Origin: a virus
Virus record (IMG/VR): IMGVR_UViG_3300025889_000832
Location: 1 to 26,164 of that record
Length of the DNA: 26,164 nt
Reading direction: 5' to 3' (one strand)
Shown: in pieces, positions 2,307-5,994 of the stretch
Position numbering within the stretch: the first letter of the stretch is position 1
How the letters are laid out: each line of letters begins with the position of its first letter
Position numbers and translations under genes: made by a program
The notes under the pieces: model-generated
The model's input: only the letters and a program-made list of their open reading frames with translations
Databases searched by the model: none
Told to the model about the DNA's origin: nothing

Positions 2307-2501
2307 CTAAAAATATTTTTTAAAAATAACTCTCCAAAACCAAGATCGGAAAATAGATATCACAGTAAATATAATAGCGATCTGAAAACTTTCGAATATA
2401 GTCGGATGCAGGTCAAACAAAGGGAAAATCAGTAATTGGATTAAAGTAGCCAGTAAAAGACCGCTGCCAACGTCTATAAAAGCCTCTACTAAAGGCCGCA
2501 C
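2307..2501 (-). CDS. Small membrane protein, DUF7220-like
   Basis: A 64-aa protein with two hydrophobic segments (about residues 10-28 and 38-52). The layout, an N-terminal FIDVGSG, then QLLIFPLF and finally FTVISIFRSWFWRVIF, matches my memory of the phage family DUF7220 (E--N---G, IFP-FG, FTV-S--RSY--RR-F). The family function is not known; it is presumed to lie in the host inner membrane. The start overlaps the end of the PP-loop gene by 13 bp, which suggests translational coupling. Two stem-loops follow the stop codon. Confidence 0.75.
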   Translation of the reverse strand: MRPLVEAFIDVGSGLLLATLIQLLIFPLFDLHPTIFESFQIAIIFTVISIFRSWFWRVIFKKYF

Positions 2502-3373
2502 ATACCCTCACACTCCAAATTAAATAAATCTGGTTCCTTCTCTTTTTCTTTAAAAACAACTTCTTTTAAGGGAAGGCAAGAACGATGGATATATAAATTA
2601 TCCTTAACTTTATGATTTCCTTTTCTAATCGCTTCATCGATCTCACAGGCATCTTTGAATTCTTGTGGTCTATTTCTTTTCATATCCGCCCAAAATGCGT
2701 CATCATGAAAAGGACATCCGATACAAGCGGACTTTGCTGGTCTCCGTAAGTCGCGCCCCTCATACCATCGTAAGCAATCCTCTCTCGTCATCTTTTTTTC
2801 GATCAACGGCCAACGATTACATTGCCACCATATTCTTGCGGGTTTCATACGCATAATTTCGTCGGTGGAAATACCGATCCACATCTCTACCCATTTATCT
2901 TTAGGAAATCGTTTTCTAAATCCTACCCCCATCAACTCTCTCGTCTGTTTAATGATAGGCGTAATTTTGTATTCTCTCGTACATTGTCTACGCAGCATAC
3001 CTTTTTTACCGGTGTCCGGGTTTTTGGTATAGAACGGTGCGGACGCAAAACGGTTTCCGCTCTCCGACATCGCGTTCATGATATCCTCTCTAATATTTCC
3101 GTATTGAATCGTATAGACAGGATAAGATAATTTGGTCTTCAACCATTCTAAATGTTCGTAGACTTGTGGCGGTTCCCAACCTGTGTCAGCAAAGATAGCT
3201 GCATCGGGTTTAACCCCAAACGCACCTTCCTCTGCCATTAATGCCATCGTCGAGCTCTGTACTCCTGCTCCTAAGGACAAAATACGCATTGCGGGCTCAC
3301 CAGGAAACTTCGTACCCTCTTTGTTGTCTCCAGCTAATAATTTAAAATCTCCAGGACTAATGTTAGTGGACAT
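2489..3373 (-). CDS. PP-loop protein, PAPS reductase-like (adenine nucleotide alpha-hydrolase fold)
   Basis: A 294-aa protein. SLGAGVQSS (residues 33-41) is the PP-loop that binds and adenylates substrate in PAPS reductase, ATP sulfurylase-like and tRNA-thiolation enzymes. FADTGWEPPQVYEHLEWL follows, as in PAPS reductases (A-F-DTG---PE). Cysteines at RRQC (131), C185, C200 and SACIGCPFHDD (217 and 220) could bind a cluster or act in sulfur transfer. Such phage genes are often labelled PAPS reductase, but true assimilatory function is unlikely in isolation. DndC-like DNA phosphorothioation or another nucleic-acid modification is an alternative. GGGAG lies 8 bases before the ATG at 3373; an internal Met29 is the other possible start. 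It sits in the cluster with the methyltransferase and oxygenase. Confidence 0.8.
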   Translation of the reverse strand: MSTNISPGDFKLLAGDNKEGTKFPGEPAMRILSLGAGVQSSTMALMAEEGAFGVKPDAAIFADTGWEPPQVYEHLEWLKTKLSYPVYTIQYGNIREDIMNAMSESGNRFASAPFYTKNPDTGKKGMLRRQCTREYKITPIIKQTRELMGVGFRKRFPKDKWVEMWIGISTDEIMRMKPARIWWQCNRWPLIEKKMTREDCLRWYEGRDLRRPAKSACIGCPFHDDAFWADMKRNRPQEFKDACEIDEAIRKGNHKVKDNLYIHRSCLPLKEVVFKEKEKEPDLFNLECEGMCGL

Positions 3374-3647: not shown

Positions 3648-4148
3648 CTATTTTATCTCTTCAAAAAAACTTTTTACTAATCTTTCATAATTCAATAACT
3701 CTTTGTTTTCAAAAAACTCTACCGTAAACAAATAACGCTCCTTGTCAAAGTTAAACACGGTATGCCTTACCTGATTATTAAAAATAACATATTCCCCCAT
3801 AGTATACGGTAATTCTATAAAAGATCCACTCATAGTTATCTTTTCAGGAGAAAAACAACAAAAACTTCTACCTGAATCATTTAATAAAGCATTCACGCAA
3901 ACGCCTCGTTCGTCATCTACATGCCAGTCATAATAAGTAGTTGGAGGCAGTAATAGCACGCCTGCTTGAAACGGGTGTAATTCATTTAACTGACGTAAGA
4001 AAGAGTCCTTTTGAAAAGTGGCTAGATCTACAGGCATGAGTTTAAAATTAAAATAATCGATCCAATGATCATAGTGTGCTGCCTTGACTAATAACTCTGC
4101 TCGCAAACTAGTCTGAATGCCTGTTTGCACAAAACAAGTGTTAACCAT
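3648..4148 (-). CDS. 2OG-Fe(II) dioxygenase (Asp/Asn hydroxylase-like)
   Basis: A 166-aa protein with the double-stranded beta-helix signature: DWHVDDERG gives HxD (H76, D78), VRHTVFNF gives the distal iron ligand H129, and KERYLFTVEF gives the 2-oxoglutarate-binding arginine (R138). Spacing of about 50 residues between HxD and the distal His is normal for the family. The closest match I recognise is small phage oxygenases labelled aspartyl/asparaginyl beta-hydroxylase or prolyl hydroxylase. The substrate cannot be read from sequence. GGAGGTG precedes the ATG at 4148, which overlaps the 3' end of the C5-methyltransferase gene by 8 bp. That tight coupling raises the possibility that the enzyme acts on methylated DNA. 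Confidence 0.8.
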   Translation of the reverse strand: MVNTCFVQTGIQTSLRAELLVKAAHYDHWIDYFNFKLMPVDLATFQKDSFLRQLNELHPFQAGVLLLPPTTYYDWHVDDERGVCVNALLNDSGRSFCCFSPEKITMSGSFIELPYTMGEYVIFNNQVRHTVFNFDKERYLFTVEFFENKELLNYERLVKSFFEEIK

Positions 4149-5223
4149 GATACACCTCCATAATTGCTTTGCCTATTTCTTCCGCGATTTGCGGGACGAT
4201 AGCATTTCCCAATGCTTTAAGTCGGTGTGCTCTGCCGGATACCCCATGAGCCACTCGACCCACATCGGGTTCAAACTCCCACCTGCGTGGCCAGCTAACT
4301 TGCTCTTGGCTTTGATCTTTTCGTAATCCGTGTTCGGACCTGAGTCCTTGTAATCCCTCGAAGTCGGTGTCGGCATCATTTGTACCGCTGCCGTTAAATT
4401 GTGTTGCATGGCTTTCTTGATTCCTTTTCTCTTGATTAAGCTTTCTGGATTCTCCTGCCCCGATGCTCTCGGTGTTGGCCACAACATCTTCTCGTGTCTC
4501 ACTTGATCGTTCAAACTGATTGGCATCTTCTTCTCTAATTTCATTTTCATTCTCTGTTCCGAACTGGCTCCCCTGTCGCAGTGTGCGTCGGGAGTTCTCC
4601 ATAATCGCATGGTGTTGGGATCCACTTGTTCTCTCAGATTCGATGGTCGTGTTCTGCCCTTCCTCTGTCCTTGCATTAATTTGAGGGTTCCCTCTTCTGA
4701 TCTTGGAGGTAAGTGATCCATTGTGTTCGGAGTAGCCCACAATCCAGACTCGTTCTCTTTTATGCGGTGCACCGATGCCTGCAGCTGGAATAATAAACGT
4801 TTGGACTTCGAAGCCTTCACTTTCCAAGTCAGAGCACACAGTTTCGAAGACCATGCCGTCTTGGATGTTAACAAGACCTTTGACATTCTCTGCAATAACG
4901 AAGGTGGGTTGGACTTCCCTAATGACTCTAAACATTTCTGGCCAGAGATAGCGGTCGTCGTTAGTTCCTTTTTGTTTTCCTGCAACACTGTAAGGCTGGC
5001 AGGGGAAACCACCTGTGATAATGTCAATTGCTCCGATGTCTTTTTCGATTTGGGTTCCATTCAATGTTTTAATGTTATCATATACGGGTATATCTTTCCA
5101 ATGTTTATTTAGCACTAATTTACAAAAAGGATCCATTTCACAGAATGCTTTTGTTGTAAAACCTGCTTTTTCTAAACCTAAAGAAAATCCTCCAATCCCA
5201 CTAAACAAATCTAAATGATTCAT
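4141..5223 (-). CDS. dcm: DNA (cytosine-5) methyltransferase
   Basis: A 360-aa enzyme that transfers a methyl group from SAM to C5 of cytosine in DNA. Motif I DLFSGIGGF (residues 5-13), motif IV GGFPCQPYSVAG with catalytic C75, motif VI AENVKGL (111-117), motif VIII RERVWIVG (156-163) and motif X RLKALGNAIVPQIAEEIG are all present, so it should be active. Residues about 165-320, where the target-recognition domain should be, are unusually polar and low in complexity (N, E, S, R, Q). This same stretch carries the overprinted frame at 4173-5060. The start overlaps the HNH gene stop (ATGA) and the end overlaps the oxygenase start. Likely roles are protection from host restriction or priming DNA for further modification. 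Confidence 0.93.
   Translation of the reverse strand: MNHLDLFSGIGGFSLGLEKAGFTTKAFCEMDPFCKLVLNKHWKDIPVYDNIKTLNGTQIEKDIGAIDIITGGFPCQPYSVAGKQKGTNDDRYLWPEMFRVIREVQPTFVIAENVKGLVNIQDGMVFETVCSDLESEGFEVQTFIIPAAGIGAPHKRERVWIVGYSEHNGSLTSKIRRGNPQINARTEEGQNTTIESERTSGSQHHAIMENSRRTLRQGSQFGTENENEIREEDANQFERSSETREDVVANTESIGAGESRKLNQEKRNQESHATQFNGSGTNDADTDFEGLQGLRSEHGLRKDQSQEQVSWPRRWEFEPDVGRVAHGVSGRAHRLKALGNAIVPQIAEEIGKAIMEVYHG
4173..5060 (-). CDS. Overprinted frame inside the C5-methyltransferase gene (295 codons)
   Basis: A same-strand open frame, shifted +1 from the methyltransferase, lies wholly within it and runs 295 codons without a stop. Its product contains CALTWKVKASKSKRLLFQL (over methyltransferase motif VIII), two LW-TP motifs (LWATP, LWPTPRASG) plus MMPTPTSRD, and GGSLNPMWVEWLMGYP followed by HTDL (over motif X). 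I recall LWPTP and NP-WVEWLMG-P strings in phage proteins annotated as methyltransferases, so this frame may be conserved. No ribosome-binding site precedes the ATG at 5060, so expression could depend on frameshifting or coupling. It may be a true dual-coding gene or a by-product of constraint in the main frame. Confidence 0.4.
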   Translation of the reverse strand: MEPKSKKTSEQLTLSQVVSPASLTVLQENKKELTTTAISGQKCLESLGKSNPPSLLQRMSKVLLTSKTAWSSKLCALTWKVKASKSKRLLFQLQASVHRIKENESGLWATPNTMDHLPPRSEEGTLKLMQGQRKGRTRPSNLREQVDPNTMRLWRTPDAHCDRGASSEQRMKMKLEKKMPISLNDQVRHEKMLWPTPRASGQENPESLIKRKGIKKAMQHNLTAAVQMMPTPTSRDYKDSGPNTDYEKIKAKSKLAGHAGGSLNPMWVEWLMGYPAEHTDLKHWEMLSSRKSRKK

Positions 5224-5687
5224 CGAGTGTCTTTATACACTCTTATCACCGCTTGACAATCTTTAAATGTCATTTTATGTTTTTTCATATTAAAAGCAAA
5301 ATTACAGAAAACAATATTACGAAGCGTATACCCTTTCTTCGGATCTAATTTATCTAAAGAAATATTACTCCAGGTAATCGTACCTCGATGCCGAATGAAA
5401 GTTAAAGGTTGTAAGGTATAGGCACAACGCTTGCCGTATTTCTTTTTGTGTTTCTTCCAGGAAGCAAACAACTGAGGTAAGGTAATGGTGAAAGGTACTT
5501 TATCTTTTTTTGCACGCAATCTTGCTCGGACAAACATATCTTTAATCCAATTATCTTCTTTTTTAAATCGGTTAATTTCTATTTGTTTATACTTTCCTGG
5601 GTCCTCCGCCCTCCTCTTTCTGCGTCTCGCATTAATACGATCGCGATGCAGCCTATAATATTTTCTTTGAATGGAATCTTTTATCAT
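5220..5687 (-). CDS. HNH-type endonuclease
   Basis: A 155-aa protein started at the ATG at 5687, which has GGCGGA 9 bases upstream. An in-frame ATG at 5753 lacks a ribosome-binding site and would overlap the previous gene by 101 bp. The N-terminus is very basic (ARRRKRRAEDPGKYK), suited to DNA contact. The C-terminal half has RCAYTLQPL, then NISLDKLDPKKGYTLRNIVF and a final N-x-x-K element, as in small phage HNH proteins (SLDRLD--KGYT--NV). The first zinc-type cysteine pair is incomplete. It may be a free-standing homing-type nuclease or serve in recombination or packaging. It overlaps the methyltransferase start by 4 bp, so it might also pair with it as a restriction-like unit. Confidence 0.7.
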   Translation of the reverse strand: MIKDSIQRKYYRLHRDRINARRRKRRAEDPGKYKQIEINRFKKEDNWIKDMFVRARLRAKKDKVPFTITLPQLFASWKKHKKKYGKRCAYTLQPLTFIRHRGTITWSNISLDKLDPKKGYTLRNIVFCNFAFNMKKHKMTFKDCQAVIRVYKDTR

Positions 5688-5994
5688 AATAATTTTTCCG
5701 CCAGTAAATATAATCGGCTTGTCCTTCGCTGAAATAAATTTTCTTTTCATCAATCATGCGATGAAATTTAGTTTGCACGTATGACGGATCAAATTGTGCG
5801 TAGTAACAGACCATCTCAAAATCATTATTGGCATCAACAAACCAGGTGAAGGCATTGTCTTTATGCATAATCAAAGGTCGCTCCATGCCTTCGTAAAAAA
5901 CATCTTCAAAAGCTTTTTGTAACACGGCTCTCCACAATCTTATTTCTGGGGAATACTCTCTATCTTCAAATTCGTTTCTAAGTTCAAAATCCAT
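5653..5994 (-). CDS. Conserved-looking phage hypothetical protein (113 aa)
   Basis: A 113-aa protein with RLWRAVLQKAFEDV, an aromatic patch AFTWFVDANNDFEMVCYYAQFDPSYV and a basic tail. I recall phage proteins with the layout RLW-AV---AL-D- followed by W------F--VC--A-L-P--V next to small replication or modification genes; the function is unknown. The start at 5994 has GGAG at a short distance (TTGGAGCTATG). It is preceded by the structured element 6007-6060 and overlaps the HNH gene start by 35 bp, which suggests coupled translation. Confidence 0.75.
   Translation of the reverse strand: MDFELRNEFEDREYSPEIRLWRAVLQKAFEDVFYEGMERPLIMHKDNAFTWFVDANNDFEMVCYYAQFDPSYVQTKFHRMIDEKKIYFSEGQADYIYWRKNYYDKRFHSKKIL

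Follow-up and report, generated by a model that had tools for sequence, protein, structure and literature searches.

In the virus contig analysed here (26,164 nucleotides, or 26 kb, hereafter referred to as the window), the gene for a C5-cytosine methyltransferase contains a second open frame in the +1 register of the same strand. This hidden frame is real and is kept by purifying selection. Based on homology to single-chain enzymes, it almost certainly encodes the DNA-recognition part that the methyltransferase is missing, and it is very probable that the overprinted locus specifies a two-chain C5-cytosine methyltransferase, with alpha as the catalytic chain and a separately started beta as the specificity chain. 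The first-pass annotation had suggested that one gene might give two products, and our data support this, as a real, conserved and widespread overprinted gene means that one stretch of DNA yields two products. Both frames are on the minus strand, and their parts are as follows.

4141–5223, minus strand: main frame, C5-cytosine methyltransferase, subunit alpha, 360 aa (PF00145 E=3e-55, phrog_363 E=6e-82, TIGR00675).
4729–5223, minus strand: alpha catalytic core, residues 1–165, with motifs I–VIII (FSGIGG, PCQ, ENV, RxR), aligning to M.HhaI 14–171; main-frame dNN/dSN 0.10–0.11.
4285–4728, minus strand: main-frame read-through linker, residues 166–313, at the position annotated as recognition domain; main-frame dNN/dSN 1.07–1.33.
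4147–4233, minus strand: alpha motif X segment, main frame; dNN/dSN 0.16 (alternate frame 0.85).
4173–5060, minus strand: hidden +1 frame, putative subunit beta, 295 aa, identified from its open frame, conservation and substitution rates (phrog_1008 E=8e-29).
5058–5081, minus strand: beta start region, with the ATG at 5058–5060 directly after a TGA (5061–5063) that ends a 6-codon mini-ORF from the ATG at 5079–5081.
4746–5060, minus strand: beta N-terminal region, overprinted on motifs IV–VIII, with LTWK and LLFQLQAS conserved; alternate-frame dNN/dNS 0.47 then 0.20.
4602–4739, minus strand: beta cassette 1 (WATPNTMDH...), 46 aa; module cluster C0, 77 loci.
4482–4601, minus strand: beta cassette 2 (WRTPDAHCDRG...LNDQV), 40 aa; module cluster C1, 44 loci.
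4377–4481, minus strand: beta cassette 3 (WPTPRASGQEN...), 35 aa; module cluster C2, 16 loci, at differing positions.
4275–4376, minus strand: beta cassette 4 (MPTPTSRDYKD...), 34 aa; module cluster C5.
4218–4274, minus strand: beta motif-IX-like segment, LNPMWVEWLMGYPAEHTDL, with invariant residues and a match to the corresponding segment of fused enzymes; alternate-frame dNN/dNS 0.14.

The 295-codon +1 frame reported in the first-pass annotation was confirmed, running from ATG to stop at 4173–5060 within 4141–5223. When the gene's own synonymous codons were shuffled, the hidden-frame stretch had a mean of 8.3 stops, and when codons were drawn from the window's other genes the mean was 15.5; stop-free sequences numbered 0 of 20,000 in each case. 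Open runs in the +1 frame of the window's other long genes were at most 67 codons. The TP repeats that had given the frame a non-random look are real. The description of the sequence as AT-rich holds for the genome (~35% GC) but not for the methyltransferase kilobase, which is 46% GC. The string GGSLNPMWVEWLMGYP, which had been placed over motif X, is actually at ~4233–4283, just upstream of that motif and at the position of motif IX; motif X itself (GNAIVPQ, 4189–4209) is in the main frame.

That the arrangement is widespread, as had been surmised, was borne out: at least 591 viral stretches have a relative of the hidden protein, and a search of annotated phage records with the hidden frame found similarity in 254 at a permissive cut-off and in 73 at a strict one. 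The overprinted arrangement was observed in well over a hundred phage genomes, a count that is a lower bound. Both frames overlapped in the same +1 register in 82 of 82 loci, over ~490–1370 nt, the shortest overlaps being those of loci truncated at the end of a contig. As an earlier set of loci had been picked by the hidden frame, we re-selected loci using the N-terminal 153 residues of the methyltransferase, the first 54 of which (a third) are outside the overlap. Stops in the alternate frame of homologous loci, which would speak against a second gene, were absent from 78 of the resulting 79 viral loci, when ~5 per locus are expected from synonymous shuffles. The +2 frame of the same loci had 23.3 stops against 22.7 expected. 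In canonical E. coli Dcm relatives, a control in which all motifs are in one frame, the comparable region had a mean of 7.7 stops in the +1 frame and was stop-free in 0 of 20 sequences.

To determine which frame selection acts on, each nucleotide change in 38 disjoint pairs was classed by its effect in both frames, with stop-creating changes removed because stop avoidance alone could mimic constraint. Before the overlap, the background values in these pairs were 0.67 (dNN/dNS) for the hidden frame and 0.08 (dNN/dSN) for the main frame. Both frames are constrained over motifs IV–VIII (hidden 0.47 then 0.20, main 0.10–0.11), while the values for the presumed target-recognition region are 0.19 (95% interval 0.14–0.24) in the hidden frame and 1.07 (0.91–1.27) in the main frame. 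Constraint on the hidden frame is strongest at motif IX (0.14) and is lifted at motif X (0.85), where it acts on the main frame instead (0.16). Gapless cassettes, used to exclude alignment error in the variable region, gave 0.11 (0.10–0.125) for the hidden frame and 1.33 (0.96–1.67) for the main frame, and their mean identity was 83% in the hidden versus 54% in the main frame. The same profile was obtained independently from distant enterobacterial prophage enzymes, with 0.90 before the overlap, 0.39 (hidden) and 1.02 (main) in the recognition region, and 1.16 (hidden) and 0.10 (main) after motif IX. The two-frame test that had been proposed for this locus therefore found the hidden frame constrained at the amino-acid level in the recognition region (0.11–0.19). 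The first-pass annotation had attributed a polar, repetitive segment of the methyltransferase to constraint from two frames; the odd look of the segment is real, but double constraint is not, as the main frame there is at 1.07–1.33. Because constraint in that region is only in the hidden frame, the polar segment is a neutral shadow of the hidden protein. As judged from these rates, the two frames share one gene by splitting constraint along its length, as opposed to both being constrained everywhere.

Structure predictions for alpha follow similar boundaries. Residues 1–171 were modelled confidently by AF2 (pLDDT mostly 80–97, with a dip to ~60 at 71–90), and the core model matched M.HhaI (Foldseek, E=6e-15). 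Residues 172–325 had pLDDT of ~30–45 and almost no secondary structure, a pattern of predicted disorder, and no residue between 158 and 334 was invariant across 60 homologues. In the motif X segment, helices were predicted with rising pLDDT, and G339 is invariant, and N340 nearly so, in the 60 homologues. The motifs of PF00145 that are present, namely I, IV (PCQ), VI (ENV), VIII (RxR), and X (GN), are invariant or nearly so; however, the chain with the PF00145 core has neither motif IX nor a target-recognition domain under constraint.

The hidden protein has an N-terminal region, in which G40 and W79 are invariant, followed by tandem (W/Y/M)-x-T-P modules of mostly 28–52 residues and an end with LNPMWVEWLMGYP. 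In its motif-IX-like LNPxWVEWLMGYP, residues L263, N264, P265, V268, and M272 are invariant in 62 homologues. Actinophage-type relatives have similar cassettes and LxPxFxEWMMGLP in frame with motifs I–VIII, and then motif X (GNGVVPQ). There were 81 loci with this recognition half, 44 of them single in-frame fused ORFs and 36 split, with 30 of the split loci in the +1 register. In split actinophage-type loci motif X is in the second chain, and in Gordonia phage Float294 the two halves are adjacent genes (62 and 61). In profile comparisons with the fused methyltransferases, the hidden frame aligned to the part that separates motif VIII from motif X (hhalign 97.9%, E 4e-13), and the main frame to motifs I–VIII only (E 4e-50). 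Consistent with this, phrog_1008 (“DNA methyltransferase”) had matches in the hidden frame as well as in the C-terminal half of enzymes both fused and split. It is this homology to the segment between VIII and X that identifies the hidden protein as, almost certainly, the target-recognition and motif IX half. The assignment of motif IX is based on position, collinearity and the fused homologues, and we refer to the segment as motif-IX-like; in the fused profile, LxPxFxEWMMGLP is collinear with M.HhaI 272–307 (motif IX, then motif X GN), at a score of −1.2 bits that is not significant alone. The beta profile had no match by sequence in the PDB, the hidden frame had none in Pfam and NCBIfam, and its long relatives had nothing in those two databases beyond weak HTH_28 matches. 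The AF2 model of beta alone was weak (pLDDT 61, pTM 0.25), and Foldseek found no structural match with that model.

In most viral relatives, the hidden ORF starts with an ATG or GTG at main codon 48–56 that is preceded by AAGGAG, GAGGAG or similar. An SD match of at least 6 nt was present before the alternate start in 66% of 89 loci, versus 19% in synonymous shuffles, and the main-frame amino acids encoded by the SD stretch differ between lineages. That most relatives have an SD and start codon of their own for the hidden frame argues that the hidden protein arises by internal initiation of its own and not by a frameshift. The SD typical of most relatives was not evident in the window, where a TGA stands just before the ATG, so beta of the window must start without a recognisable SD, and reinitiation after the mini-ORF is the likely route for its translation. 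In a near relative (L085), the frame is open through the point of the window's TGA. The main gene and the one upstream of it overlap as ATGA at the main-gene start, and for this reason the operon appears to be translationally coupled.

We propose that alpha would provide motifs I–VIII and X, with the stretch from VIII to X being an unstructured read-through of the coding sequence of beta that acts as a passive linker. Beta, started separately within the alpha gene, would begin with a region through which it probably docks to alpha, followed by a tandem series of target-recognition cassettes of ~40 residues and then motif IX. We infer that alpha and beta assemble into an enzyme active in methylation and that each cassette would read one DNA site. 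A cassette swap would then change the sequences methylated, and this may protect phage DNA from host restriction.

Other explanations of the locus can be weighed against this two-chain enzyme. A frameshifted hybrid had been put forward in the first-pass annotation, and a programmed +1 frameshift would join main-frame motifs I–VIII to the hidden cassettes and motif IX in one chain. Such a chain would fit with the hidden segment being homologous to what fused methyltransferases carry in frame as their C-terminal half, and with the +1 register shared by most split actinophage loci. However, constraint on the hidden frame begins ~100 codons ahead of the recognition region (0.47 then 0.20), a start codon with an SD is conserved ahead of that region in most relatives, and the hybrid would lose motif X because that motif is only in the main frame, where it stays. 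We consequently consider the hybrid very unlikely. It is highly improbable that the hidden protein has a separate function (e.g., anti-restriction or regulatory) and does not act with the methyltransferase, even though it is apparently initiated on its own and has its own family (phrog_1008). This is because 44 fused loci include this segment within the enzyme, and because the hidden frame has the motif IX that is absent from a main frame that also has no constrained recognition domain.

A further reading, in which the polar segment of alpha is the true target-recognition domain and beta supplies motif IX only, corresponds to the published view of M.EcoHK31I (PMC3404938). As that segment is neutral, predicted to be disordered and without an invariant residue, and as the fused enzymes read conserved cassettes in the frame that matches beta, we regard this reading as extremely improbable for the window. 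Lastly, the open frame could be an untranslated by-product of codon usage or repeats. Given the stop-free frame in 78 of 79 loci, the excess of SD matches, the constraint at the amino-acid level, the Dcm control and the zero stop-free shuffles, the probability of this is close to nil.

The proposed two-chain enzyme appears to vary through its cassettes. Comparison of the window with L085 revealed DNA identities of 98% in the core, 99% in cassette 1, 93% in cassette 2, and 97% in the IX/X segment, but cassettes 3 and 4 of the window are replaced in L085 by a different cassette, with 35% identity there. As judged from such alignments, cassettes are exchanged between near-identical phages. Comparison of 416 modules revealed the same types at different positions, in arrays of 1–7 per protein. 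In some relatives (L043 3933–4446, L050 3849–4239, and L060 3933–4329, in locus coordinates), the hidden ORF extends 390–514 nt beyond the stop of the main gene and has further cassettes and a C-terminal part beyond motif IX. Cassette text similar to these extensions was observed inside the array in L049 and L146, and the extra cassettes could be a stored stock for exchange.

Enzymes with some of these properties are known. M.EcoHK31I, which recognises YGGCCR, and M.EaeI are two-polypeptide C5-methyltransferases. Lee, Kam and Shaw reportedly described, in NAR in 1995, that the small-chain ORF of M.EcoHK31I is in another frame inside the large-chain ORF. As a natural two-polypeptide enzyme, M.EcoHK31I has motifs I–VIII and X on its large chain, to which its predicted recognition domain was also assigned, and only motif IX on its small chain (PMC3404938). 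The window resembles that description in having motifs I–VIII and X in its large chain and the motif-IX-like segment in its small chain, and its small-chain ORF is likewise inside the large-chain ORF in another frame, as is said of M.EcoHK31I. The window locus can therefore be viewed as a widespread, cassette-bearing variant of that kind of enzyme. It differs in that selection and homology put recognition in the small chain, as an exchangeable array of cassettes, and in belonging to a phage and prophage family with no evident restriction enzyme alongside. By analogy, we suggest that, if M.EcoHK31I belongs to this family, its recognition domain would have to be sought in the small chain. Our searches of plasmid and E. 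coli sequences did not find an entry named M.EcoHK31I, and turned up overprinted prophage relatives.

For M.AquI, we know of no deep overprinting. M.AquI (CYCGRG) is an alpha/beta C5-methyltransferase that is split in the variable region, with two chains that rebuild one enzyme (PMC3404938). Its small chain holds motif IX and motif X together, whereas motif X of the window is in the large chain, and M.AquI is more like the Gordonia and other split actinophage loci than the window.

The multispecific C5-methyltransferases of Bacillus subtilis phages SPR, phi3T, and rho11 have tandem recognition modules of ~40 residues between motifs VIII and IX. The window has a similar array of tandem, exchangeable modules of ~40 aa, which are presumed to recognise DNA. 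Those enzymes are single chains in one frame, while the array of the window is in an overlapping +1 frame; modules in frame with the catalytic core occur in the 44 fused actinophage-type loci and not in the window. Exchange of cassettes in the window also has the added demand that the other frame stay open. For multispecific methyltransferases, PMC4081073 cites Behrens et al. 1987. The ShiLan domain is another case in which a phage methylase gene conceals a second protein out of frame; it is an HNH endonuclease, and the methylase frame has no stops through the insert (PMC11855218). ShiLan is a sporadic homing insertion, while the hidden frame here lacks stops in 78 of 79 relatives and appears to encode the half of the enzyme that recognises DNA. 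A homing insertion of that type was rejected for the window, as its hidden frame had no match to a nuclease family in Pfam, PHROG, or NCBIfam and is not sporadic.

Our literature searches found no description of an overlap of this kind in phages. The depositors of E. coli phage K1G (L212) annotated both frames, at 1122–1946 and 1210–1902, as a “putative C-specific methylase” and a “putative Mte8-like protein”, and both frames are also annotated in Paenibacillus phage Tadhana (L002). The overlap has thus been called in places, without an explanation that we found in the literature, and the database label of phrog_1008 is silent on many of its members being overprinted. An E. coli cS100a prophage relative (L207, 2857–4026) is recorded in RefSeq as two pseudogene fragments; its main frame is uninterrupted, as is its hidden frame across the recognition region, and the neutral linker probably misled the annotation pipeline.

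The genes near the methyltransferase in the window were also noted. Directly downstream (3648–4148, minus strand) is a gene with no clear family match (best phrog E=0.006), whose product contains H-x-D ... H (WHVDDERG ... NNQVRHTV), a pattern resembling that of 2-oxoglutarate/iron oxygenases; from this pattern it is conceivable that it oxidises 5mC, and a relative is near the methyltransferase in L084–L086. Upstream, an Endonuclease VII/HNH-like gene (5220–5753, minus strand) overlaps the methyltransferase start as ATGA and has relatives in several loci (L057–L061, L083–L086). A phosphoadenosine phosphosulfate reductase-like gene (2489–3373, minus strand; phrog_424 E=3e-49) is of a type that is a common phage auxiliary gene.

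Beyond the window, overprinted enzymes of two chains probably make up a major lineage among the C5-methyltransferases of phages and prophages. What is annotated as their recognition domain would be a translational shadow of cassettes in the other frame, and specificity would be re-programmed by cassette exchange that keeps both frames open. To our knowledge, the overlap is among the longest and most widespread conserved same-strand overlaps in phages. The arrangement is easy to mis-annotate and, if the recognition domain is indeed such a shadow, database records give specificity to the wrong chain and the wrong frame, with annotations and specificity predictions using the wrong protein segment. 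Alpha on its own would not be expected to work in recombinant tests. Cassette swaps combined with methylome analysis would provide a direct way to study how phages switch their methylation specificity.
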